Assembly (NCBI GenBank): GCA_025617375.2
Contig: JAMYGW020000001.1
Location: forward strand, 1,736,001-1,800,000
Direction of reading: 5' to 3'
DNA: 64,000 bases
Source of the DNA: Acarospora socialis
Lineage: Eukaryota; Ascomycota; Lecanoromycetes; Acarosporales; Acarosporaceae
The position numbers and the translations under genes are program-made. The notes under the pieces are model-generated. The model searched no databases and was not told where the DNA came from. It saw nothing but the letters and a program-made list of their open reading frames with translations. Positions 1,704 to 17,933 of this stretch are shown here, piece by piece (within the stretch, counting starts at the first letter, position 1; the number at the start of each line of letters is the position of its first letter).

Positions 1704-3804
1704 TCAAGTACCGGTACTCCTCCCTGCCTCATCCTCGGCTGCAGCCTCAGCCAGACTCGCCACGACTCTTCGGCCTGAAGCCCTCCCCGCGCTGCCGTCG
1801 AAGACGAAGGGCCCGGCATCGTTCCTCGGCGTCATCGGACCTTCCGGCCCTGGCGGTTCGCCGGGTGTAGGCGTTGCAACGCGCAGTGTGTTTGAGGGCT
1901 CGCTCTGTCGGGTGTTGTCGCCTTCATGCGATATGCTGGGGCTACTGGGACCTCGTGGTGAAGGCGGTGTTCGGTCAGTGGGTCTTGTGGCTTTGATGCC
2001 GCGCTGGAGCATGGAGGTACCTGACACGTTTCGCCGGGAGAGGAGGCTCGATGAAGAATCAAGTTCGGCGGTAGTAGGTTGCTCAAGCGTCTCAAGAGAT
2101 GCAGTATTGCCTCCGGTAGGTAACTCGGCTTCACCACCACTAGGGTCTGCGTTCCGTTGCACCGGCAAACCATCTGCAGGCTGCGCAACTTCGATCCCGG
2201 TAGGTGTTCCGATAGGAACGTGCTCAATGTTGGGCTTGGGATTTCCAGCTCCGGTGGAATCAGGGCTGTCATGCGCCTCATCGTCTGATTGCTCTTGGTA
2301 GTCATACGGATCATCGACATCGGCTTCGAGGTCGGCAACAGCACGGCAGTTGGGACAGAGGAATTGCGGCCATGTTCTGTGGTCGTTTAGTATGGGTCGG
2401 ATACATTTATAATGCCACACGTGCGAGCAGGGCGCGACAAACAGCGATTGGCAAGGCTAGATATAAGTCAGTGGTCTGTCTTTCAACTAGGGACACAATC
2501 CGAACATACCGCTACCGACATTAAGCATATTGAGCACTCGGAGGTATGTGTCGACGCAGCATCTGAATCTTTGCTAGGAGCCAGTTTTGCTAAATTCCTC
2601 AAACGCTTGTGCGTGTTCATACTACAAGATGGTTAGCATCATCTCACGGCACAATTCGTATGAGGTAATGTCCGAAGACGTACTTGAAGCTGTTGAGGCC
2701 TTTCTGCCACGCACGGTTGCACTCGACTCTTATCTTCACACATCGGAATATCATCTCCTCACCTCCTCTGAAGTCGATCCCAAGCTGAACGACATCTCCA
2801 TCATTAACGGGGTAGGGTCTCGATTCAACATTGGGCTGGCTTAGCCGTATGTGGTTGAGAAAAGTCCCCGACGAACTCTTCACATCTTTGACGTACCACT
2901 GTCCATTGGAACACCAGAATTCACAGTGTTTCCGGCTAACTACCTTCGATTTGAAGCCGACCAGAGCTGCTGAAGGCGTATTCGGCGCAGGGGTAGGGTT
3001 CGTATCTCGCTCTGAATAACGCCCAACCTTGATCACTGAACTGCTATCAGGCAGTGTCCTAGAGATAGGAGGGAATGCCAGGGATGGTCGGGCAGAGCGA
3101 GGATCCTGATGCGGGATAAAACGGATTGTTGGTAGTTGTGGATTTGCTGAAGATGAAGTTTGGCCATTGGTGTCTTTCGATGGAGTACTACCATGATTTG
3201 CTGCTGGTTCTCCTTCGGCGGTACTTAATAATCTGCCAAAATTAAGGGCCTCTGTTCTGAAGGTTGGGCTTGGGAGCATTGACGCAAGGCGCGATCTTGA
3301 TGGGGTACTGTCGGATCTGTGTCTTGTCATGGCAGCCACGATGTTTGCGTTATCGACAGGTGAGGTTACGTGGTCGTCGGCTGGAACGGACGATGTAGCT
3401 GCAGCGGGACGTATAGACTGTGCTTGTAGAGCTACGCTTGACAGCCCACTGGATCCACCAACGGTTGGCAACCAGCCGCTTGCCGTCTGGATTTCGGTTT
3501 TATTACTCGTAGCCTCCTCGGTAGTAGCAGCTTGCACAGCTTGCTGTTCTTGCGTGTTCTCAGCCGATCCGTTCACACTGCCGTGGTCGGAGGAAGTTTG
3601 GGCAGAGGAGCTGGTCGACCTCTGTAAGCTAAGTCGATGTGACGGGCTATTCGGATGTTGAGAGGAGTGCGATGTAAGGTGGTTGTGAGTATAGCTTCGC
3701 AGATAGCTTAGTCCTCGCAATCTTCCTGTCCGAGAAGTGGTCGGTGATGTCGGAGAACTGGGCACAGGAAAAGTTGACGGAGCTGTTGTAGGCTGTGAGA
3801 ACAT
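1704..3804 (-). CDS. dma1: FHA-RING E3 ubiquitin ligase, Dma1/Chf family
   Basis: Predicted ubiquitin ligase that binds phosphothreonine partners; in yeasts the family controls septins, spindle position and mitotic exit. Exons: 3804-2684, 2621-2510 and 2456-1704, giving 661 residues in frame. ATG 3804 is the first Met; the frame extends upstream only with non-ATG codons. The N-terminus (1-255) is Ser/Thr/Pro-rich. The FHA domain (about 257-362) shows the expected GRYSER, SRKHCEF and SSGTFLN blocks. The RING follows the second and third splices: ECSICL, then APCSHVWHYKCIRP, then LCPNCR, a complete C3H2C3 set. The order FHA then RING and the linker THKRLRNLA fit Dma1. The C-terminal 200 residues are disordered and Pro/Ser-rich. 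It diverges from the MPP alpha gene. Family assignment is firm; cell-cycle role is inferred from yeast. Confidence 0.93.
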
Positions 3805-4476
3805 TGGTTTGTAGAATAAAGCTCTCACGCAATGATTGATCGCGTGAGGTGTAAGAGGACGTCGTCAAACAGTACGCTGCTTGGGCCTGTGGGAAATGGA
3901 CCTGGTCGCCGTACGGGCTGTGACAAGGATTCAGAGACGAGGAATGTGGGGCGAAACGTAGGAGACGAGAGTCTGCCTTGTGTACGTACGAATCGGCGTT
4001 TCGGACTAATTGAGGACTTGGGAAGTAGTGACCTCAGTGGCCGCCCTCTGAAAGTCCTTCTGTTGTGTAACGTTGAACCGCTCTCTAGCTGATACTGGAT
4101 CCCGCCTTGGGAGTTGTAAGCTGAAGGATCATCGGTACAAGTTTGAACTCACTTCGGCTAGGAGCAATACTATGAGTGGTGCTCAACTGATCTCCATGCA
4201 TTGAAGGATCTTTGAGGCAGTAAGTGTGACAGCCCGTATCATTGACTCCCCTTCCCACATCGATGAAAAGGAATGGTAAGGTCAGTGCGATCCAACGGAG
4301 TAACCCATCGGTACGCTCCGAACTCTGGTAGGTCTAGATCACTTTGGAGTCCGGTGATGCTTAGTCACCATCCAGACCTGAAGCTACCCGGCGCAAACTG
4401 TTCCGATGTCCTTTGAATGCATCTAGAGATCCAAGAACTGTCTCGCACAGTATATTCTAGGGCTGAGATAGTTAAA
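3805..4476. promoter_or_regulatory. Divergent promoter, dma1 / MPP alpha
   Basis: A 672-bp non-coding stretch separates the start codons of the FHA-RING gene (-) and the MPP alpha gene (+), so it must hold both promoters and both 5' leaders. I see no long open frame with family features and no clear TATA box. Confidence 0.6.
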
Positions 4477-6995: not shown

Positions 6996-8550
6996 TCAGT
7001 TTGCCATGACGCTCTCTAGCCAGGGATAAACGCTTGCGTTGGAAGCAGGGTAGCCCATGTGTAGTAGGTTAGGGAAGAATCTGTAGGAGTTGATTTTGAG
7101 TCAGTTTGTTTCGATATCAACGCGTGTAGCTCCTTTCTTGAAGAAGGCAAACAGGGAGAGGTGTAAGAGATGGACACACCTTGCTTCTTTGGGACTGCCA
7201 TAGTTGAAGAGTAGCAGTGAGTCCTCAATCGGCATCAGACCATCATGTGTCCCCTAACAATTAGTCAGTCAGCTAATATGGCCAAAGGTGGAATGGGGAG
7301 GCGTCAGCGTACGTTGATCAGCAAAAGCCGAGTGCTGTCTTTATTCACAATCCCAGTCTCCACAAGCGAAAAGGTTTTCTGCGACTTCTCTTTGAACTCT
7401 TGCACGCTGTCATAGCCGAATTTCTGGGCCAATGCGGGATTGAGACTGCCAACGATAGACGCAGTCAGTCATCAAGCTCTTAGCGCTGGCGTATATTCGT
7501 CTGTAAATTCCAGTGTATAGCGCACTTACTCGAAAGGATACTCGTGGTCATCTGCCCTCTCCAACCATTGTCGATCGAAAAAGTAATGAATTCCTGCTCC
7601 CTGCGCCACAGATCCTCTCAATTTGTCCTTATGCGTATGTGCAATCCTCACCGCGTAGTACCCACCGGTACTTAGACCCCAAGCCACCACGTTGCTCATG
7701 TCGAAGATCCCCTTCTTGGCCATCCACTTGAATATACTATCCCACAATCGGTCTGGACTTTTAGGATCTTTCGGGTCAGCCGGGCAGTCGGCAGTTCCCG
7801 GAATCTCGGCGATAACGCAGCCCCATCCCCTTTTCACAAACTCGTAGCTCCGTTGCGTGTTGTCGGGACGGTAACCGTCTAGACCGGTGATCAGAAGGAC
7901 GGTGGGGACTCGCTTCTCGGGGCTAGCGGTGGAAGGAACACGGATGTACACCGGGATAGATGGCCCATCGGCTCCGGAGGCGGCCACGTGCGGGATTGAT
8001 TCTTCGTAAACGGGATCAGCCCACCCACGGACGGCTTTGAGATATGCCGCCTTTTGCGCCTCGAACGCTTTCCACTTCACGGCGGAATTCATGATGGGGA
8101 AGCGTGAGATGCGGTATAAACAGGCGACACGAAGGTAGAGCGAAGAAGCCAGAGCAGGGTTTTCAGCCTCACAGGAGGCGGCTTGGTCGAGAAGTTCCGT
8201 GCATTTGGGAAAAAAGGCTTCAGTGTAGGCATCGCCATAAGCGTCGTTGATATTGTTCTGTATGGAAGTCACTACGGGATGTCTGCAGTAGAATCGTCTG
8301 AGACAGAACAAGTGCGCACCTTTATGAGATAGTTGAAGACTGGCTCGAAATCTTCAATACTGCCGTCGTGAAAAGGATAGAGGCCTTTCAAACACTGTCA
8401 AGGCGCGGTCAGCAATCCCCGATTGCAGATTTCGAGGGCGACGATGAATACAGGAAATCGCCATTTCGTCTCCCATAAAGCTTTGATAGATTCGTGATGC
8501 TTGCTTCTGATCGCAAAGGCTTCACCAAGTATCCAGTTTTTCTCCAGCAT
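6996..8550 (-). CDS. ayg1: Ayg1-type polyketide-shortening alpha/beta hydrolase
   Basis: Hydrolase that removes the acyl tail from a hepta- or hexaketide naphthopyrone to yield 1,3,6,8-tetrahydroxynaphthalene, the entry compound of DHN melanin. Six exons: 8550-8452, 8394-8320, 8257-7530, 7445-7313, 7253-7180 and 7080-6996; all splice in phase to 397 residues, close to the roughly 406 of known Ayg1. ATG 8550 gives [12 protein letters not shown], then [11 protein letters not shown], the usual Ayg1 N-terminus. The nucleophile elbow is WGLSTGG (Ser254). By family spacing, Asp349 (in GTHDGLMP) and His377 (in NLLHMGYP) complete the triad. [10 protein letters not shown] and [12 protein letters not shown] are family blocks. 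It diverges from scytalone dehydratase over a 640-bp promoter, which supports a role in pigment synthesis. The substrate chain length cannot be told from sequence. Confidence 0.92.
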
Positions 8551-9190
8551 AATGATCGTCGAGGCTGGCTGCAGTGAGATGATAGGGTCAGAGAAGTTGC
8601 TTGATCGTCCTCAGGCCAAACTTGGTGAACATTTATTTTCAAAAGGGCGTGCTCGACAGGTTTATGCATTGTTAGTAACTCCACAGATCGTCCCCAAGAT
8701 TACAATGATTCCAACCTTTCGGACCAGATTTTGGTGTGGTGGTTTGTGGGATGCAACAGTGCAGACTCGATGTCCGCTACGGACTCCGAATTTAACCTTA
8801 GTAGAGGTAAGCTGCAGCTGCATGCGTTACACAACAAATGTAAAATCAATGATTATTGACGGACTCCGCTGAGCACAAAATGCTGCGTTCTTGACTAAAT
8901 GTATATCGAAAACCAGGAGGTACATTGCTGCACAGGCTATAACGTCGAGTACGCACAAGCGTCCGTCAGGACCGGAGAATACGAAGCGGCGTCAGAACTC
9001 ATGCAATGGGAGGATTTGCGAATTGCGGACAACGGAGAGGCTTGAAGGCCTTCTCGTAATGATCATCTATAAATTCTGTAAGCTGGCCGTCTCTGCTAAG
9101 GAAACTCAAAAATCGATTCCACATTGCCGTACCACGTTTAAGACCGCCTTCATTACACAACAACCCTTGTGACGTCAAAGGCAGCCCATC
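8551..9190. promoter_or_regulatory. Shared promoter of the ayg1 / scytalone dehydratase pair
   Basis: A 640-bp stretch between two divergent start codons of enzymes from one pathway, so co-regulation from a common promoter is likely. Several short open frames occur but none has family features. I could not single out an operator sequence by eye. Confidence 0.6.
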
Positions 9191-10113
9191 ATGTCTTTCT
9201 CAGCGAAGAAGCCAGCTGTGACTTTTGAGGGTACATCACCAGGACCAGGCTACCTGTACCGCAATGTTCTTTGAACTGATCGTGCGCAGAGTATCTCGAA
9301 CTCACAGCGGTGATGTTCAACTGGGGCGATAGCTACGATGCCAAAGTGAGTATCACCGCATAAAGAGCACGACTTCCAGCGACAATGCGCAACTCAGTCT
9401 AATCTCTGAGCCCGTACCGACTCGTGTGATGGGCCTAAATGGCTGAGCTGGGGCCTCCATATATAGGATTGGAAAAGACTTCGCAGCATTATCGCACCCA
9501 CTCTCCTGGTATGTGTTTCACATGCTCTTCCCTTTGGTTGCAACCATAAGTCATTGAATCAAATGTGCCACTCGGCGCCGAGCATCCACTTGCCAAACCA
9601 TCTTCAGCCACAGGCCGCTGCTGATACCAAAGTCAGGTCGACTACCGACTCGTGATGGACGAACGATGGATCTGGGAGGCGATGTCGGCCGAAGACTTTG
9701 TCAATATGATCAGCGACGATGGGTTTCTCGGCGACCCTTGTGTCAAGACGCAGCATCTCCTTGGAGCGACCGAGTGGGAGCGCGTTTCCGACACCGAAGT
9801 GATCGGGCATCACCAACTTCGAGCGGCCCACAACCGCTTCACCGGCCCGGACATGCAGCGCGTTGACCGACGAGGTCACGGACATGCCACCAACGAGCAC
9901 TTCTATAAGAAGGTTGACGGTGTCTGGAAGTTCGCCGGATTACGCCCAACCGTGCGTTGGAACGAGTACGACTTTGAAAAAATATTCAAGGGCATCTCGT
10001 TTGATAATGTGGCCAAGGCGGCAACGGCAAAGCCCATGAACGAACATTCGATCTCTTCGGTTGCTTCAGCGGTGGATGGTGGTGTCAACGGTGCTGGCGT
10101 TCCTGTCCCATAA
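9191..10113 (+). CDS. scd1: Scytalone dehydratase
   Basis: Dehydrates scytalone to 1,3,8-trihydroxynaphthalene and vermelone to 1,8-dihydroxynaphthalene in DHN-melanin synthesis. Four exons: 9191-9230, 9290-9345, 9467-9508 and 9637-10113, giving 204 residues, slightly longer than the well-studied enzyme because of a C-terminal tail. The spliced sequence shows the family blocks in order: FEEYLELTAVMFNW, SYDAKDWKRLRSIIAPTL, VDYRLVMDERWIWEAM, GDPCVKTQH, VIGHHQLR, GHGHATNEHFYKKVDGVWKF and GLRPTVRWNEYDF. The active-site Ser-x-Asn of the reference enzyme appears here as Thr-x-Asn (HATN), a conservative change. Four exons with very short 5' exons explain why only the last is obvious as an open frame. 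It pairs with ayg1 and precedes a Zn2Cys6 regulator. Identification is firm. Confidence 0.95.
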
Positions 10114-10950
10114 ACGGCGAGCAGTGGGCTTTCGTGATGTCACGCCAAGATTGTGTGAAGTTAATAGTTATATATAATTTCTAGTCAGAAATAGCAAACA
10201 TCTTCATACTCATCACACCGCGTCTGCAAAGAGCCAAAATGAACAGATCATCACACTGATACTCATGCCAATGATTGCGGTACCTACCTTAAGCTTTGAG
10301 AGTCTTGAGACAGCTGGGCATAATTAATATTAATCATAAGAGATATAAGCTCGCCTCGCTTCCTCTTGCCTACCTAGGTAGTGAGCATCAGGCAGTGGCT
10401 TCTTTCTTATGTAATCGACGCCAATCTCCAAGACAGTCACAGACTCACAGTAGTTCTATTCATGGATATCTTAAGTTTGGATGAGGCTGGGTGTCAATTA
10501 CGACGCCATGTGGAACAGTTTTCATGTCAGCATCATCTTCGTCCTGATCAGGTTTAGTTAGGCTTTAGATACGGACATCGAGGAAAGGTTACATGTACTC
10601 GAGTACTTCGTCCCGTACACACCATAACGACAGCGTGTGTGTTTCCATTCATGATAAGATACTATACATGTTGCCTTCACATGTACAGCTAGGTGCAAAG
10701 CATCTTGTTCCATTTTCCTCGCGTCACCTCTTACCTGTTACTTCTATACCATGGGTCTACCCTGTGTACACCTATGATCAGTATAAGACGTTGAGTTGTA
10801 CCTGTCAGCTTACTCAATTGCACGAAACCAAGATTCCCATGGGTCGGTGAGGCTACACCTGACAACAGTCAAGAGCGAAGTACTGGAGGCATGATACCGC
10901 AATCGAAGAACAGGCCCCGTGGGAACCTCTCTGCTGCCGACTGATCAGTC
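10114..10950. other. Intergenic region before the cluster regulator
   Basis: An 837-bp stretch holding the scytalone dehydratase 3' UTR and the promoter of the Zn2Cys6 regulator. Small open frames at 10296 and 10593 have no coding character. Nothing else is visible. Confidence 0.5.
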
Positions 10951-13900
10951 ATGGACAACGGTGCTCGCATGGCCATAGCTTGCAGCAGTTGCGCTAAAGC
11001 CAAGGCGAAATGTGATAAAAAGGTCAGCCCTGACGGTCAATTGACCGTATGCCCCGGCAAATTCTCCCTCTCCATGCCACGGCTTCTGGTAGACCTGGCT
11101 GTGTGGTTCTGACTGTTTCAGCAATGAGTCTGAGTGCACTCGAGATGCCAGTGCTACGCAGAAACCTTGTCTCTCTTGCGGTGCTGATACCATCACCAGT
11201 TCCCTTGTACGAGATGCGCCAGCAAGCATACACCTTGCCAATCAAGATCAGCTCGTCGTTCCTTCAACGTGGCCTCGCGCAGGGCGAATCCCATGCCTGA
11301 CGCATCTGGAATTGCTTCAACTGTTTCTTGCGCGAGTCGTATTTCCAAGACCACGGTGGAGGCAGGATCTTCCGTGGTTCCACGTGTTAAGGACAAGGAC
11401 CGTCAGCTGCAGTGGACTGCATATCCTACATCCCCGAGTCTATCAAGCTATTCTTCTCCTTCCGACAAGCGCCGTGATTTGGCAAAAAGCTCTCACCTGC
11501 GCGTCAATCTGGCCAGCCAGACAGATGGACTCAACTACGGTCAAGACACTGAGCAGGAACTTGTGCACCGTGGCTTGTCTGAATCTCCTCTGCATTTTGA
11601 TGCCTCTCTTACGCCTGTAATGCATCCTATGTCCGAATTTAACGCCTTTATGCAAGTGCACGGAGGCGATTACTCCAATGAATGTGACGATCAGTTTCTC
11701 TTATTAGGGGGCATGCACAATCCTCTGGATTTCGACATGTCAATTCTAACGGAGATGATGTCCCCTGACAGCACGAGATATGAGATGGCCGAACCTTCTG
11801 TTATCGAAACAATGCCAACGACGAGCGAGGAAGCGAGAACATTACCACGAGTCTCAGTCTCGACGACGTCGAATTACTCCTCGAGGAATGGATCCACATC
11901 TAGCATGTCCTTACCAGACTCTCCACAGACGTCGCACAAAAGGCTCTCTACCTCAACTTGTCAGCGGTCCTTTCAAGAGCATGAAGCAGTAACTGCAGCG
12001 CAAGAGGGTTGGCCGTGCTTTCGGTGCAACCCACCAATACCAACCATCTCTTGTCCCAAAACGGCCAAGTTATACCTTGAAGGGCTGGAGCAAACGCTCA
12101 GGGACCAGGATACTTGGAGTTCGTGGGATACGCGGCCAGACCTTGACCGTGCAACCGGCGACGAAGTCGTGACAGAGTGTTTTGTTGGATGCACTAGGGA
12201 CAAACTACTTGCGATTACTCAAAGCTTCCTCCACAAGGCTCTGGAAATCCACCGCGCCAGGCCGGTGGGTTCACCCGAAAACCTCAGTATCTCGGACCTC
12301 GATTGCGCACAGTTTATCATCCTCCCACCTCCTGAGGTACTGGAATATTTTCTCCGTGCCTACGTCTGCCGCTTCGAACCGTACTATGGCTTCGTTTCGG
12401 GTGGGATACTCAAGCCAAATGAGATCATGCAGCTCAGCAACGGCAAAGCCTCCAGCTTGTTATTACTCCTAATGGTCGCGCAAGGTGCAATGGCCACCTC
12501 TACCGTTGAGGCTCGCTATCTCACCAGCGGATTGACCGAAGCCTGTCGAATTTCGTTGTTTGATATTATTGAAAAGGACATTGTCCTATCCTCGGACCCG
12601 ATTGTGCTTCGGTGTGCGTTACTTTTTACGACATTGGCTGCTTGGAGTGGGGACAAATGGCATATGGATGTAGGATGACTCGAGTACTTCTCATTTGAGA
12701 AAGAGTTCACGCTGACGTTTCTAGATCGCAATGGGTCAACGAGGAATATACATGGCGGTCAGCCTTTTCCTCGACCGCATCCGCTTCTTTGAAACTAATG
12801 TGACGATAGATGCTTACCCACGCCGGCATGCTAGAGTCTCGACAGTTCAAAGTCTCCTTACCCGAAGCACAGTTGGATGTGGGTGCGGCTTGGACAGCGT
12901 GGAAGGAACATGAGAGTAGGAGCAGGTAAACTACCCTCCTCAGAGACGATATCGTCAAGGAAGCTCACAGGACTTTCGTGCAGACTAGTCTACTCCTGGG
13001 TTACGAACGATCAAGAACTGAGCTTGTTCCATGACGTCGCGCCGATGCTGTCAGTCACAAACCTTGACGCCGCAATGCCAGACACAGAGTTCTTGTGGCA
13101 AGCCAAATCCGCGCATGACTGGTACCGGTCGTATCAACAGGTGCATGGAATGTCGCCCAGACAGCCACCTTCTCTCCGAGATCTTTTCAGGCGTTTCATT
13201 GATGGAGAACTCTTGAACGATTACGTTGAGCTGTCTCCCATCCAACTCCGTCTACTCCTCCATCCCTTACAGTCTCTGGTCTGCCATCTGCGTCAGTTTC
13301 TTAGCTGCTTCTCTGAGGGAGGCAACTACTGCAAAGCGTCCCAAGCCGTTACCAAGTCTGCGACGCGGGCTCGACTCGAAGAGATCCAGTGCCTGCTGCA
13401 ACAATGGTACGCCCTCTTCCGGCGAAGCATCCAGGACAGCGTCAATCCCTGTTCCGCCGCCAAGGCCAATATCATCATGTACCACCTTATTTGCCTCAAT
13501 ACCATGATTAGCTTCCCCGAAATCGAACGGCTGGCACGCTGCGAAGTCACCCAGTCTCCCTTGTCGCAGTCTTGGTGGCGGTTGCACAGTGGTGACGAGG
13601 TCGCAGAGGTACTTTTGCACTGCGGCCAGATCCTTCGAGTCATTCGCTCAATGCCGGAGCGTGTCAGGCCGCCATGGTGGGCTGCAGCGGTGTATCGGGT
13701 AGCATTGATCTTCTGGGCGAATAGCATGGCAAATATGGAAATGCAGCTTCTAACCAGCAATTTGGCAGCGACAGAGGGTGGTCAAACCTTCGCCATTGAC
13801 GACCTTCCTCCCGAGCATCCATATATCGTGCGTTACTTGAAACATCGAGAGGGCTTGCCGATGTTCTCCAAGCCTGACGGCTCGATGGTCTCGTTGGAGT

Positions 13901-14016
13901 TGCCAGAGAACGTTCTGAGGCACTGCATCAACGTCATAGAAGAAGACTCGACAATGAGGTTCACCGCTGGCATTCAAAGCAAGCTTGTTAGGTTGGTTGA
14001 GCGGTGGAAGACTTGA
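10951..14016 (+). CDS. Zn2Cys6 transcription factor in the pigment neighbourhood
   Basis: Fungal zinc-cluster regulator of 907 residues. Exons: 10951-11022, 11200-12669, 12725-12757, 12810-12925 and 12984-14016, all in phase. The binuclear cluster is built across the first splice: CSSCAKAKAKCDKK from exon 1 and FPCTRCASKHTPC from exon 2, together six Cys with normal spacing. A 177-nt intron lies inside the cluster. A basic stretch (RSARRS) follows, then a disordered Ser/Thr region, then the fungal regulator body from about residue 300 with typical hydrophobic helices (for example EVLEYFLRAYVCRFEPYY). It follows scytalone dehydratase on the same strand, so it is a good candidate for the local melanin regulator. 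It has no C2H2 fingers before the cluster, unlike the known Cmr1/Pig1 melanin regulators, so it is probably not their direct ortholog. The pathway role is inference from position. Confidence 0.85.
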
Positions 14017-15084
14017 GCAGAGATGATCGAGTATCTGTGGAGGGAGGTCAACTCTAGCACACGCGGTCCTTTGCATTTAGCAGAAGCGATGGTGCTTTTT
14101 TCCTTACTTTTCCGCATCATCTCTGGTGGGCGTTTCGGAATGCTGCGCCGAATGGAGGCTCGAAAGGTTCTGCCATTGACTCGATGACTTCTGAGCGAGT
14201 TAGGGAAAGGCGCTTTGACGAAATGACGAGTTGGGCGGACATGAGTGGAGAAGCCACCAGTATCACCAGGGAGTAATAGGAAAGCTGTGGCCCATGGGAG
14301 AAAAACATAAGGATGGGAATTTACATAAGGGGGGGACTTGTTTGATTTCAGTCTACTATAGAACCTCATAGACGGGTTATGATCGAGCGCGCGATTACTC
14401 TAAAGATCGTTTTTGTTTGTTGTACTGAAAGTTCGTTTCCCCTACGTTGAATGTGAACGAAACGTGCAGTCTCTTTGTTGTAGATGTCTGCTGGCAGCTC
14501 GCAAATCCGCAGGGCAGCAAATGTAGGCTTAGGGAGACACGATTCAGAAAACCGAATCTGCGGCTTAGGGCCCGCTTTCCGTGGACATACAACGGTCAAG
14601 CTTCGCTGGCTCTGATGGTTAGAAATAAGTGATCCTGGACTTGATACGGATGGTAGACTCTGCCCTGCCTTAGCTCCGTTTACGATGAGCTCAGCTTCAC
14701 AACAGCATAACATTGAGAGTTAGGTCTTGGAAAGAGGCAGCAGAGATAGAGTATTTGGTGGCCTACTATATACGAACACAAAACAGAAGAAAGCTTCGTG
14801 AAAGGGCATGGCGAGACCGGTGCCCAGCCTAAGAGAAGCCTCCCCCCCGAACAATTCCCAGAGCACAACTCCCCCACCACAACCCAGAGCTCCTCCTAAT
14901 TCAAGTCTGCCCACAAGACAGTCAGCGCCAAGACAAGTTACCGGTTCCACAACCTTGAAAGCTTCGCCGAATGTCAGTAAAAAGCTCTAGGCCATAAACG
15001 AATGCGTTTCCTCAGGTTGACAAGGGCCAGCGAAGGTAATCACTTCCAACCTGGAATTATAGCGGTTACCTAGCCCGCCCACGA

Positions 15085-15620
15085 GCAAGGCAACCCGGCT
15101 AGTATCCCACCCGTCGCGGCAGGGATGGCGGCCGAGATATCGTCGCCGAAAAGGACCATGAGGTTGCGAAAGTCATGGTGAGGTCGCTAGTGTCATTCTC
15201 ATGTTGTAGACCCAACCGGTGATGGCTCCACAGCGGCCGCGGAAGTTGTTAAGATAGCCGGCTCCGTATCCGTCCTTGTTGGGGTCCCCGTGGCGATGTT
15301 ATCGGTGAAGGCGTGGGTCCCGAGTCCGAGCTTGTAGCTACAGGTGCCGTCGAAGCTGCGTTCGAGAGAGCTGCCTGTTGCGGTAGGGTCGACGGCGGTG
15401 AGGCTGCCTGTCGGACAGGTTGCGAGGAGGAGGATGGAGGCCGGAAGGGTGGTTAGAGAGTGGAACGTGGTCGAGGAATTGGAGTGATGGATGATCCGAT
15501 GGACGGATGAAAGCTTTTCGGATAGCGACTGGGAAAGGTCGGTATAGGTAAGGTTCTAGTATTGAAGACTTGAGTTGAGATGCTGATGTTCTGTCAATCG
15601 TGTAAAGGAGCCGTCTTCTT
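15085..15620 (-). pseudogene. Remnant of a small secreted-protein-like gene
   Basis: The minus strand holds a hydrophobic signal-peptide-like segment (LPASILLLATCPTG), then a Thr/Ser-rich part with Cys, and further down a block GDPNKDGYGAGYLNNFRGRC that looks like conserved secreted-protein sequence. The pieces lie in different frames and no single open frame or in-phase splice links them, so I read this as a decayed gene. I do not recognise the family and give no function. Confidence 0.3.
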
Positions 15621-16511
15621 ATACCTTTTAAGCCACCACAGCATCGATCTGCTGAAGCGCCTCCTTCAATTCCTTCCCCACGTCCCAGCATTTTCAGCTT
15701 TATCAGCTTAACCTGCTTGATCAGCATAATGCCATGACCACGTCAACCCATAACTTGGACCAAAGGTAACGCTGCGCTGTGCTTGCTGACCTTTAAAAGA
15801 TACACTGACAGAAGACACTCGCTCTTGGTTGGAATAACACCGATGATGAGGTTATAGCTCCATCTCTCTTTCGGGACTCTGCATTGTTTTAACATGCGGG
15901 GCCTCGTGTGCTATTGTCATCCTCATGCTCCTATGTCTCTTTGACGGCTTCCTTTACTTAGTCAGTGTTGTACAACAGCGGTAATGCATCAAAGCAGGAC
16001 CCAGATCCTGACAGCTCGGGTGGGTGATATCTGGAAAAGGGCCGTGGCTAACTGTAGGAGGATATGAACTTCGGAGCCACAAACAGCTCATTCCAAAGAA
16101 GCTGGCAGAACGTTGAACACAGCATACTCTTAGAAAAACAAAGTTGATACACTGAATAATACGGGAGGACAGAGACATTGTCTGGGAAACATAGCTGGAT
16201 GTGGACAATTGATATAATTCAATGCTCCACATAAGCATACCTCAGGCAAAGGGCAGAGAAGTCGAAGGAGCGAGATGGACTTGGAACGCGAAAGAGGGCT
16301 AAAGCGAGGTAGCCCTGGAGGCAGAGCAGAACTTGAAGAGTAACAGCAGCGATTAGGTAAGCAACGAGTCATGCCCGAAACCGCTTAGGTTAGCAGTAGG
16401 CGACAGCAGGCTAACTTAAACCTTCTCTTCGGGGTTCGCTGGCCCTCGCTTTCTTCATCGGACTTCAACTCGTCAACATTTCAATACTACTCTGTATGAA
16501 TGCAACTATCC

Positions 16512-16830
16512 TCAACTCATACCCATCATCCTTCCGGGTCGACGTTCGACCTCGACCTGCATAGACCACCGAAGTGGCTTGGAGTCATGTCTACTATTAC
16601 ATCCCACAGGCTCCTCGAACTGACCGCCAGCGCCGAGACGGAGTTCGGCTTGAACGTTCAGCCAAGGATATGATGTATCACCGTATATCCACTTTGCTTT
16701 GAACGCCGCGCCGTGCCGCACTGGGATCTCATTCCGCTGAAGGCTGAAGTGGAATACGAATATGCGTCTACTATTCATGGTGGATGAACTCCGCTGGGGC
16801 CACAAGGCTGAACCCCGAGTTCCTGCGTTT
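16512..16830 (-). other. Weak coding-like open frame
   Basis: A minus-strand frame from an ATG near 16776 encodes about 88 residues with coding-like composition (for example KAKWIYGDTSYPWLNVQAEL). A second frame just upstream (near 16917) also has coding character but ends in a stop, and I found no clean intron joining them. No family is recognised. It could be a small unknown gene or a remnant. Confidence 0.2.
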
Positions 16831-17135
16831 TCAGCCCCCGACCAGAGAAAGCTCATCGTCAGGCAGTGCAGCGAACGAAACAATCCGTTCTCCGTGCTCT
16901 TCGTCCTTCAGTAACCGCATGCTTTTCGTCGATGTCGAAGATGATGTCCGGTCTCCTTGCTCCTATATGCCGCTATATGAATCTCGTAGCTGAGCATTCT
17001 ACAAGTGCCAGCAGAGATTGATATTCCACTCGCAAATCCCTTTCTGAATTCTTTAAAGTTTCCTTCTTCTCTATATCATAATCTTCTCTCCTATTCAGAA
17101 AACACAAACTACCTCACCACCCCTTCCAACCCACC

Positions 17136-17933
17136 ATGTCTAAACAATCCACCATCCGCCTCGACGGCAAGGTCGCCCTCATAACCGGCTCCGGCCGCGG
17201 CCTCGGCGCCGGCATGGCCCTCGAGCTCGGCAAACGGGGCGCGTCCGTCGTCGTCAACTACGCCAACAGCGCCTCGGCCGCGAACGAAGTCGTGTCCGCG
17301 ATCCAAGCGGCCGGCAGCAAAGCCGTCGCAATCCAAGCCGACGTCTCCAAAGTGCCCGAGATCACCTCCCTCTTCAACCAGGCCCTCGCGCACTTCGGCC
17401 GCCTTGACATCGTCGTCTCCAATTCCGGCCGCGAGATCTTCCGCGCCGAGGAGGACGTCACGGAGGCCGACTTCGATGCCGTCTTCGGCCTCAACACGCG
17501 CGCCCAGTTCTTCGTCGCCCAGCACGCCCTCCGCCACGTCGCGCGCGGGGGGCGCATCATACTCATGTCCTCCGTCGCTGCATCCATCTCCAATATGCCG
17601 AATCACGCCGTCTACGGCGGCTCCAAGGCCGCGGTCGAGGCCTTCACGCGTGGGTTCGCGGCGGACGCCGGACCAAAGGGCATCACCGTCAATGCGATTG
17701 CGCCCGGCGGGATCAAGACGGATATGTTTGCCGCCAACGCGTGGCATTATGTGCCTGGGGCCGACCAATCGTGGTCCGAGGAGGCGATCGAGAGGGGAGT
17801 GGCGAACTTCGGACCGTTGAAGAGGTTGGGGCTGCCGATTGATGTGGCGCGCGTGGTGGCTTTCCTTGCGAGTGATGAGAGCGAGTGGATTAATGGGCAG
17901 GTGTTGTTGCTCAGTGGAGGGGCTATTTCTTAG
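17136..17933 (+). CDS. SDR of the hydroxynaphthalene-reductase type
   Basis: NADPH-dependent short-chain dehydrogenase of 265 residues from one exon; ATG 17136 follows a CT-rich leader. The cofactor motif is TGSGRGLG (17-24), the central motif is SNSG (95-98), and the catalytic set is Ser146, Tyr160 and Lys164 (AVYGGSK). SNSG in place of the common NNAG, plus VNVNAIAPGGIKTDM-like sequence after the active site and the end LLSGGAIS, place it with tetra-/trihydroxynaphthalene and versicolorin reductases. In melanin synthesis these reduce 1,3,6,8-THN to scytalone and 1,3,8-THN to vermelone. It lies 3.1 kb from the regulator and could be the cluster reductase. Its GC content is higher than that of its surroundings. 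The exact substrate is uncertain; the subfamily includes other polyketide reductases. Confidence 0.82.
   Translation: MSKQSTIRLDGKVALITGSGRGLGAGMALELGKRGASVVVNYANSASAANEVVSAIQAAGSKAVAIQADVSKVPEITSLFNQALAHFGRLDIVVSNSGREIFRAEEDVTEADFDAVFGLNTRAQFFVAQHALRHVARGGRIILMSSVAASISNMPNHAVYGGSKAAVEAFTRGFAADAGPKGITVNAIAPGGIKTDMFAANAWHYVPGADQSWSEEAIERGVANFGPLKRLGLPIDVARVVAFLASDESEWINGQVLLLSGGAIS

Follow-up and report, generated by a model that had tools for sequence, protein, structure and literature searches.

Genes for a probable split DHN-melanin pathway in Acarospora socialis: a tailoring module without a polyketide synthase, and its probable partner locus on the same contig

Where would a 1,8-dihydroxynaphthalene (DHN) melanin pathway obtain its polyketide when its tailoring genes stand together without a polyketide synthase (PKS)? 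This question is raised by a 64,000-nucleotide stretch of Acarospora socialis DNA (hereafter the window; C1:1736001-1800000, where C1 is contig JAMYGW020000001.1), from a genome of 31.1 Mb in 38 contigs. We observed four genes within positions 6996-17933 of the window, encoding an Ayg1-family hydrolase, a scytalone dehydratase, a Zn2Cys6 regulator and a short-chain dehydrogenase/reductase (SDR) of the hydroxynaphthalene reductase type (Table 1). Every reading frame was complete, with GT-AG introns where spliced, and the spliced models agreed almost to the base with the coordinates of a first-pass annotation made from the letters alone. That annotation had described three DHN-melanin-type enzymes and a Zn2Cys6 regulator within 11 kb, and this was borne out by the spliced models, by Pfam and by the matches to solved structures. 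It had also reported the PKS as absent, and indeed none of the 39 ketosynthase (KS) matches in the genome fell in the window, so that the four genes are not a contiguous DHN-melanin cluster with its own PKS. The genome search for a non-reducing PKS (NR-PKS) and laccases that it had proposed found a melanin-type NR-PKS further left on C1, at a distance of ~305-320 kb and at a place called locus A here. Cu-oxidases gave 11 matches, which lie at six places on other contigs. We consider it probable that the window cluster is a tailoring module and that the PKS of the same, split DHN-melanin pathway is the one at locus A.

The product-template (PT) search gave 18 matches in the genome, seven of them over the cut-off, and the strongest was in the locus A PKS (C1:1426067). 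This PKS has the group II domain architecture SAT-KS-AT-PT-ACP-ACP-TE, with SAT, KS, AT, both ACPs and TE found by Pfam and PT by NCBIfam; for SAT the scan covered the C-terminal piece. Its KS match contained two in-frame stops, which a 48-base GT-AG intron removed, and the gene could be read open from its start codon with GT-AG introns, so that it need not be broken; its 5' exons are not fixed, 180 two-intron versions being open. The PKS is followed by a reductase on the minus strand, 2.5 kb away and 74% identical to that of the window, and then by a divergent regulator of the CMR1 type. The distance from the end of this regulator (~C1:1438.4k) to the window hydrolase (C1:1742996) is ~305 kb, while the start codons of the PKS and the hydrolase are ~322 kb apart. 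Papers are cited here by PMC number, and each statement taken from them holds for the available part of the paper. A core of PKS, CMR1-type regulator and reductase is described in Alternaria and Cladosporium (PMC9239091, PMC6312243). Since an intact close reductase, a CMR1-type regulator and melanin-type domains occur at locus A, we took it as the PKS partner of the window; judged by its neighbours and domains, its PKS is probably the melanin PKS.

The two loci are also linked by paralogy, as both the regulator and the reductase of the window have a paralogue at the PKS locus, a point missed by the first-pass annotation. Copy numbers were searched exon by exon and refer to the best candidates. 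A query covering about the second exon of the window regulator gave two matches in the genome, itself and C1:1435563, one per locus. Aligned over 934 columns, the two regulators show 42.5% identity; they have four intron positions in common, and synonymous difference between them is saturated in the last exon. The locus A regulator (971 residues, start at C1:1435061, divergent from the reductase) carries two C2H2 fingers, a Zn_clus domain at 75-107 and Fungal_trans, and is thus of the CMR1 type. Its fingers are interrupted by introns; a scan for the C2H2 pattern missed them, and the spliced model with Pfam revealed them. In the Cmr1 homologues of Alternaria, the fingers span 2-24 and 30-52, and the zinc cluster follows at 73-116 (PMC10789848). 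The window regulator has one Zn_clus domain and starts just before it; no fingers were found upstream of 10951, so that it lacks the CMR1-type combination of two C2H2 fingers with Zn2Cys6. By its sequence and introns, it is a finger-less paralogue of the CMR1-type regulator at locus A. Paralogues of dual regulators that have lost the C2H2 fingers and kept the zinc cluster are described in the CMR1 family of A. nidulans (PMC5415576); finger remnants are reported there, whereas none were seen upstream of 10951, and the window regulator, unlike those, sits in a melanin module. According to the same paper, deletion of the zinc cluster of Cmr1 abolishes melanin, while deletion of the fingers only reduces it. 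The window regulator resembles a natural C2H2-less CMR1.

The best solved chain for the window SDR was 1ja9, the 1,3,6,8-tetrahydroxynaphthalene (T4HN) reductase (E 1e-100), with 339 bits as against 279 with 1ybv, the trihydroxynaphthalene (T3HN) reductase. The locus A reductase, ranked with an unspliced query without its last ~13 residues, gave 356 and 246 bits, respectively. The S, Y and K of what we take to be the SDR catalytic motif are conserved in the alignment of the window enzyme with 1ja9, as expected of a hydroxynaphthalene reductase. By ranking against solved structures it is nearest to the T4HN reductase. At E 1e-10 or better, the SDR query gave seven matches in the genome: the query gene, a second at 74%, a third at 52% with an internal stop, and four at 30-39%. 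The window and locus A genes were the only intact ones more than 50% identical to the query. They have 196 of 265 residues in common, and with a synonymous divergence (dS) of 1.53, a nonsynonymous divergence (dN) of 0.18 and a dN/dS of ~0.12, the pair is under purifying selection by this measure. The locus A copy has its intron near the 3' end (C1:1431146-1431215, in stretch L028), while the window copy has none.

A third, hydroxynaphthalene-reductase-like gene, on contig C6, is broken. Read from the alignment, it has ~4 frame changes without room for introns, though an assembly error is possible. Its active-site piece scored higher with 1ybv (71 bits) than with 1ja9 (53 bits), and its N-terminal piece higher with 1ja9 (94 bits) than with 1ybv (76 bits), so that the label of T3HN reductase (3HNR) applies to one piece only. 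If both the label and the break are right, both reductions must fall to T4HN-type reductases here, a dual role also ascribed to THR1 of Colletotrichum (PMC5982140).

The window hydrolase had 8qd1, Ayg1 of Aspergillus fumigatus (Afyg1p), as its best solved chain (E 3e-150, 216 of 392 aligned residues identical, nearly the whole length). Its triad S254, D349 and H377 aligned with S257, D352 and H380, and with full-length similarity and Ser-Asp-His it is an Ayg1-type enzyme. The clades anticipated for the hydrolase and the SDR thus agree with the ranking against solved structures, where 8qd1 and 1ja9 came out best. Crystal structures assign the pockets of Afyg1p, which takes YWA1, and of Wdyg1p, which takes acetyl-T4HN (AT4HN) (PDB 8qd1, 8qd7; PMC11165489). 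With a constant offset of 17, the 28 residues checked (18 of Afyg1p, 10 of Wdyg1p) carry the letters given in that paper, from which the residue roles are also taken. The GLDG turn is kept in the window enzyme, and so are the naphthalene-binding residues (N191, R194 and Y380 for Afyg1p N194, R197 and Y383). Three of the four acyl-pocket residues are, however, those of Wdyg1p (T255, L302 and L306 for T257, L304 and L308), where Afyg1p has A258, I305 and W309; F284 stands at the position of Afyg1p Y287. By alignment, the YWA1-type acetoacetyl pocket with its Trp309 anchor is not present (W309 to L306, Y287 to F284, A258 to T255). Because of these three matches to Wdyg1p and the missing Trp309 anchor, the hydrolase is predicted to remove acetyl from the hexaketide AT4HN rather than acetoacetyl from the heptaketide YWA1. 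It has the family and the catalytic triad of both crystallised enzymes, but mixes the checked naphthalene-pocket residues of Afyg1p with three of four acyl-pocket residues of Wdyg1p. Such a natural hybrid could help to find what makes these enzymes specific for acetyl or for acetoacetyl. The first-pass annotation had taken an Ayg1-type enzyme to imply a longer precursor. A longer precursor is likely, with the pocket residues pointing to AT4HN and not YWA1, but the implication is not strict: in Alternaria a direct T4HN route is suggested beside the Ayg-dependent one (PMC9239091), and CfPKS1 made T4HN, although its expression host, Aspergillus oryzae, has an Ayg1 homologue of its own (PMC6312243).

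The scytalone dehydratase had two open models (199 and 204 aa), and the one of 204 aa was chosen, as its N-terminus aligned with the M. oryzae enzyme. The last exon matched PF02982 (E 1.7e-55), and the match with 1std (E 1e-61, 86 of 157 residues identical) identifies it as a scytalone dehydratase. Six of the seven residues that we take to form the 1std active site (Y30, D31, Y50, H85, H110, S129 and N131) are kept, and S129 aligns with A130. The Ayg1 and dehydratase queries gave one match each in the 31.1 Mb, and since each gene is single and the two adjoin, their linkage is unlikely to be chance. They diverge, as had been described, with 640 bp between the start codons, a geometry that makes a shared promoter putative.

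The steps of DHN-melanin synthesis are established, and the genes of the two loci could be placed on them. The locus A NR-PKS would make and release a naphthalene polyketide, which the window hydrolase would trim to T4HN, most likely by taking acetyl off the hexaketide AT4HN. The reductases of the window and the PKS locus would reduce T4HN, giving scytalone, and later T3HN, giving vermelone, and the single scytalone dehydratase would perform both dehydrations, leading to 1,8-DHN. Control of the two loci would probably be divided between the Zn2Cys6 regulator of the window and its CMR1-type paralogue at locus A. We infer that both loci serve one pathway, with the partner PKS, substrate and regulation as given here. 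The cluster had earlier been called split or partly lost. The split is supported by the PKS on the same contig; partial loss was not shown, all four frames being complete. Rather than lost, the pathway seems to be split, and its reductase and regulator are duplicated. As gene order and orientation differ between the window cluster and locus A, the duplication does not amount to the plain copying of one block; reductase and regulator may have been copied jointly or separately. A fuller history can be proposed tentatively, and we think it somewhat unlikely as a whole: two paralogous melanin loci may have become, after complementary loss, one pathway over ~305-320 kb (locus A with the PKS and the dual regulator; the window with the hydrolase, the dehydratase and the finger-less regulator), with a duplicated T4HN reductase taking the T3HN step from the broken 3HNR and an Ayg1-clade hydrolase re-tuned to AT4HN. 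The two loci may be a case of a pigment cluster that has come apart and perhaps still works, with reductase and regulator present twice and hydrolase and dehydratase once.

Several observations weigh against the split pathway as set out here. The dehydratase differs from 1std at S129 and at three of the four positions that we take to line its pocket (53, 75, 151 and 158). In the hydrolase, the fourth acyl-pocket residue, M352, matches neither Afyg1p (V355) nor Wdyg1p (F353), and overall identity is nearer to the YWA1 enzyme (55% to Afyg1p, 43% to Wdyg1p). Words of 7 to 10 letters common to several of six promoter stretches of the two loci were no more frequent than in 60 shuffles, so that the promoters lend no support to common control. 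Other NR-PKSs are present, as seen from the PT matches, and locus A was assigned by neighbours and domains and not by phylogeny. In an unrooted tree it groups with the PKSs at C1:2065k, C6:617k and C2:1918k (support 0.80 for KS-PT, 0.58 for KS alone), but this tree holds genome-internal sequences only and does not show which PKS makes AT4HN. Finally, no match to the prefoldin gene was found in three unspliced open reading frames (ORFs) downstream of the locus A PKS, while the loci compared in PMC6312243 have it.

The presence of other NR-PKSs raises the possibility that the window module belongs with one of them (e.g. C1:2063.9-2070.8k or C6:1781.8-1788k) and is the remnant of a second cluster of the Botrytis pks13 type, with the locus A PKS releasing T4HN directly and relying on its own reductase and CMR1. 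In B. cinerea, pks12 is found with the dual-domain smr1, and pks13 with scd1, brn2 and the zinc-cluster genes ztf1/ztf2 (PMC8637145); locus A resembles the first and the window the second. The PKS13 product is the reported substrate of BcYGH1 (PMC5733056), and the C1:2065k PKS has matches to SAT, KS, PT, two ACPs and TE, an AT stretch, and 50.9% identity to locus A over KS-PT. However, genome-wide searches placed neither a dehydratase nor a CMR1-family regulator nor an intact close reductase next to the C1:2065k or C6:1783k PKS, and it is the broken reductase that lies ~46 kb from the latter. Only one scytalone dehydratase was found, which a two-cluster system would share anyway. We consider this arrangement unlikely.

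It is more improbable still that the product is another AT4HN-derived pigment (a naphthalenone or a cristazarin-like naphthazarin) or a deoxygenated anthraquinone, made with reused reductase and/or dehydratase paralogues. Naphthalenone and cladofulvin clusters do hold such paralogues (PMC9239057), the PKS to which cristazarin has been assigned is sister to the AT4HN/melanin group (PMC10289310), and the Cu-oxidases that could act as terminal oxidases lie outside the window. Against this, the scanned window ORFs included no O-methyltransferase, FAD oxidoreductase, NmrA-like or aldo-keto reductase (to the right of 18000, the scan covered 15 of the 20 ORFs with at least 220 aa; short exons could escape). 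The adjacent Ayg1-family gene, T4HN-yielding in characterised fungi, and the CMR1-type regulator at the PKS locus both fit melanin. A dying remnant without function would agree with the lack of a PKS nearby and with the broken 3HNR-like gene elsewhere, but four complete frames with GT-AG introns, most catalytic residues kept and a reductase pair under purifying selection make it very improbable indeed.

The split pathway that we prefer has parallels in known systems. As in Botrytis cinerea, the melanin genes of A. socialis lie at two loci: at one, a dual C2H2/Zn2Cys6 regulator stands next to the PKS, and the other combines dehydratase, reductase and zinc-cluster regulation (PMC8637145). Here, however, the locus with the dehydratase contains an Ayg1 gene and no PKS, and a reductase is also present at the PKS locus with the dual regulator. 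Botrytis ygh1 is unclustered according to PMC9239091 and grouped with pks12-smr1 according to PMC5733056. The linkage of ayg1, dehydratase and reductase is as in the A. fumigatus cluster pksP/ayg1/arp1/arp2/abr1/abr2 (PMC9239091), but the window lacks PKS and oxidases, and its divergent pair is ayg1/dehydratase, whereas ARP1/ARP2 are described as bidirectional (PMC9239057). Locus A matches pksA-cmrA-brm2 of Alternaria and CfPKS1-CfRDT1-CfTSF1 of Cladosporium fulvum, where the remaining genes also lie elsewhere; there they are dispersed (PMC9239091) or spread over different scaffolds (PMC6312243), while the window has the hydrolase, dehydratase and reductase genes in one group with that of a second regulator. 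In Cladonia, the PKS13 and PKS15 clusters, with melanin-group PKSs of lichen-forming fungi, are both said to hold a scytalone dehydratase and a T4HN reductase (PMC10289310). PKS, dehydratase and reductase are together there; here the one dehydratase found is ~305-320 kb from the PKS. The biochemistry and the split melanin clusters of Botrytis, Alternaria and Cladosporium are known, and in the available parts of the papers cited we found no description of a PKS-less group of ayg1, dehydratase, regulator and reductase. The arrangement is uncommon and new, and the analysis adds to the earlier picture a PKS core at a distance, paralogues in pairs, a CMR1 paralogue in which no fingers were found, a hydrolase with a hybrid pocket and a 3HNR-like gene that is broken.

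Table 1. Positions of the genes and related features (plain numbers, window positions; C1 and C6, contig positions)
Feature	Position	Strand	Details
Ayg1-family polyketide-shortening hydrolase	6996-8550	minus	6 exons, 397 aa
Hydrolase exons	8550-8452, 8394-8320, 8257-7530, 7445-7313, 7253-7180, 7080-6996	minus	
ayg1/scytalone dehydratase divergent intergenic region	8551-9190		640 bp, start codon to start codon
Scytalone dehydratase	9191-10113	plus	4 exons, 204 aa
Scytalone dehydratase exons	9191-9230, 9290-9345, 9467-9508, 9637-10113	plus	
Zn2Cys6 regulator	10951-14016	plus	5 exons, 907 aa
Window regulator exons	10951-11022, 11200-12669, 12725-12757, 12810-12925, 12984-14016	plus	
Window regulator introns	11023-11199, 12670-12724, 12758-12809, 12926-12983		
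Hydroxynaphthalene reductase (SDR)	17136-17933	plus	intronless, 265 aa
Locus A NR-PKS	C1:1421999-1428643		start codon C1:1421999, frame to 1428643
Locus A reductase	C1:1431990-1431108	minus	one intron
Locus A regulator introns	C1:1435480-1435553, 1437021-1437066, 1437099-1437157, 1437265-1437327		
Third, hydroxynaphthalene-reductase-like gene	C6:1735059-1735892	minus	broken, ~4 frame changes (L042)
NR-PKS, no TE found	C1:1668060-1675435		near metallo-beta-lactamase gene (L030, L031)
NR-PKS	C1:2063931-2070769		two ACPs and TE (L038, L039)
NR-PKS	C6:1781821-1787999		two ACPs and TE; Zn2Cys6/Fungal_trans regulator downstream (L040)

The window cluster is flanked by an M16 peptidase gene on the left and by an arginase-family gene and a Tom22 gene on the right. 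In the gap of ~3.1 kb between regulator and reductase (14017-17135), three minus-strand ORFs (15199-15555, 15338-15742 and 16512-16907) gave no Pfam match at E 0.01, and the five proteins compared with NCBIfam could not be placed in a narrower family. FHA-domain genes are seen beside both loci (window 1707-3864; L026 937-4692), as RING plus FHA left of the window cluster and kinase plus FHA at locus A; tblastx between the flanks gave no real similarity, and we take this as coincidence.

Two further PKSs were rejected as partners. The nearest (C1:1670-1675k, ~68 kb from ayg1) has a metallo-beta-lactamase gene nearby, and the 20 kb examined showed no TE; we take such a neighbour to mark an anthraquinone-type PKS, and C1:1668060-1675435 looks like a pair of this kind. 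For the C2:1918k PKS, no TE was found in the 10 kb examined. A multicopper-oxidase match (C6:610218-610616) lies ~6-7 kb from the NR-PKS at C6:617k (L041), possibly as part of a separate pigment cluster.

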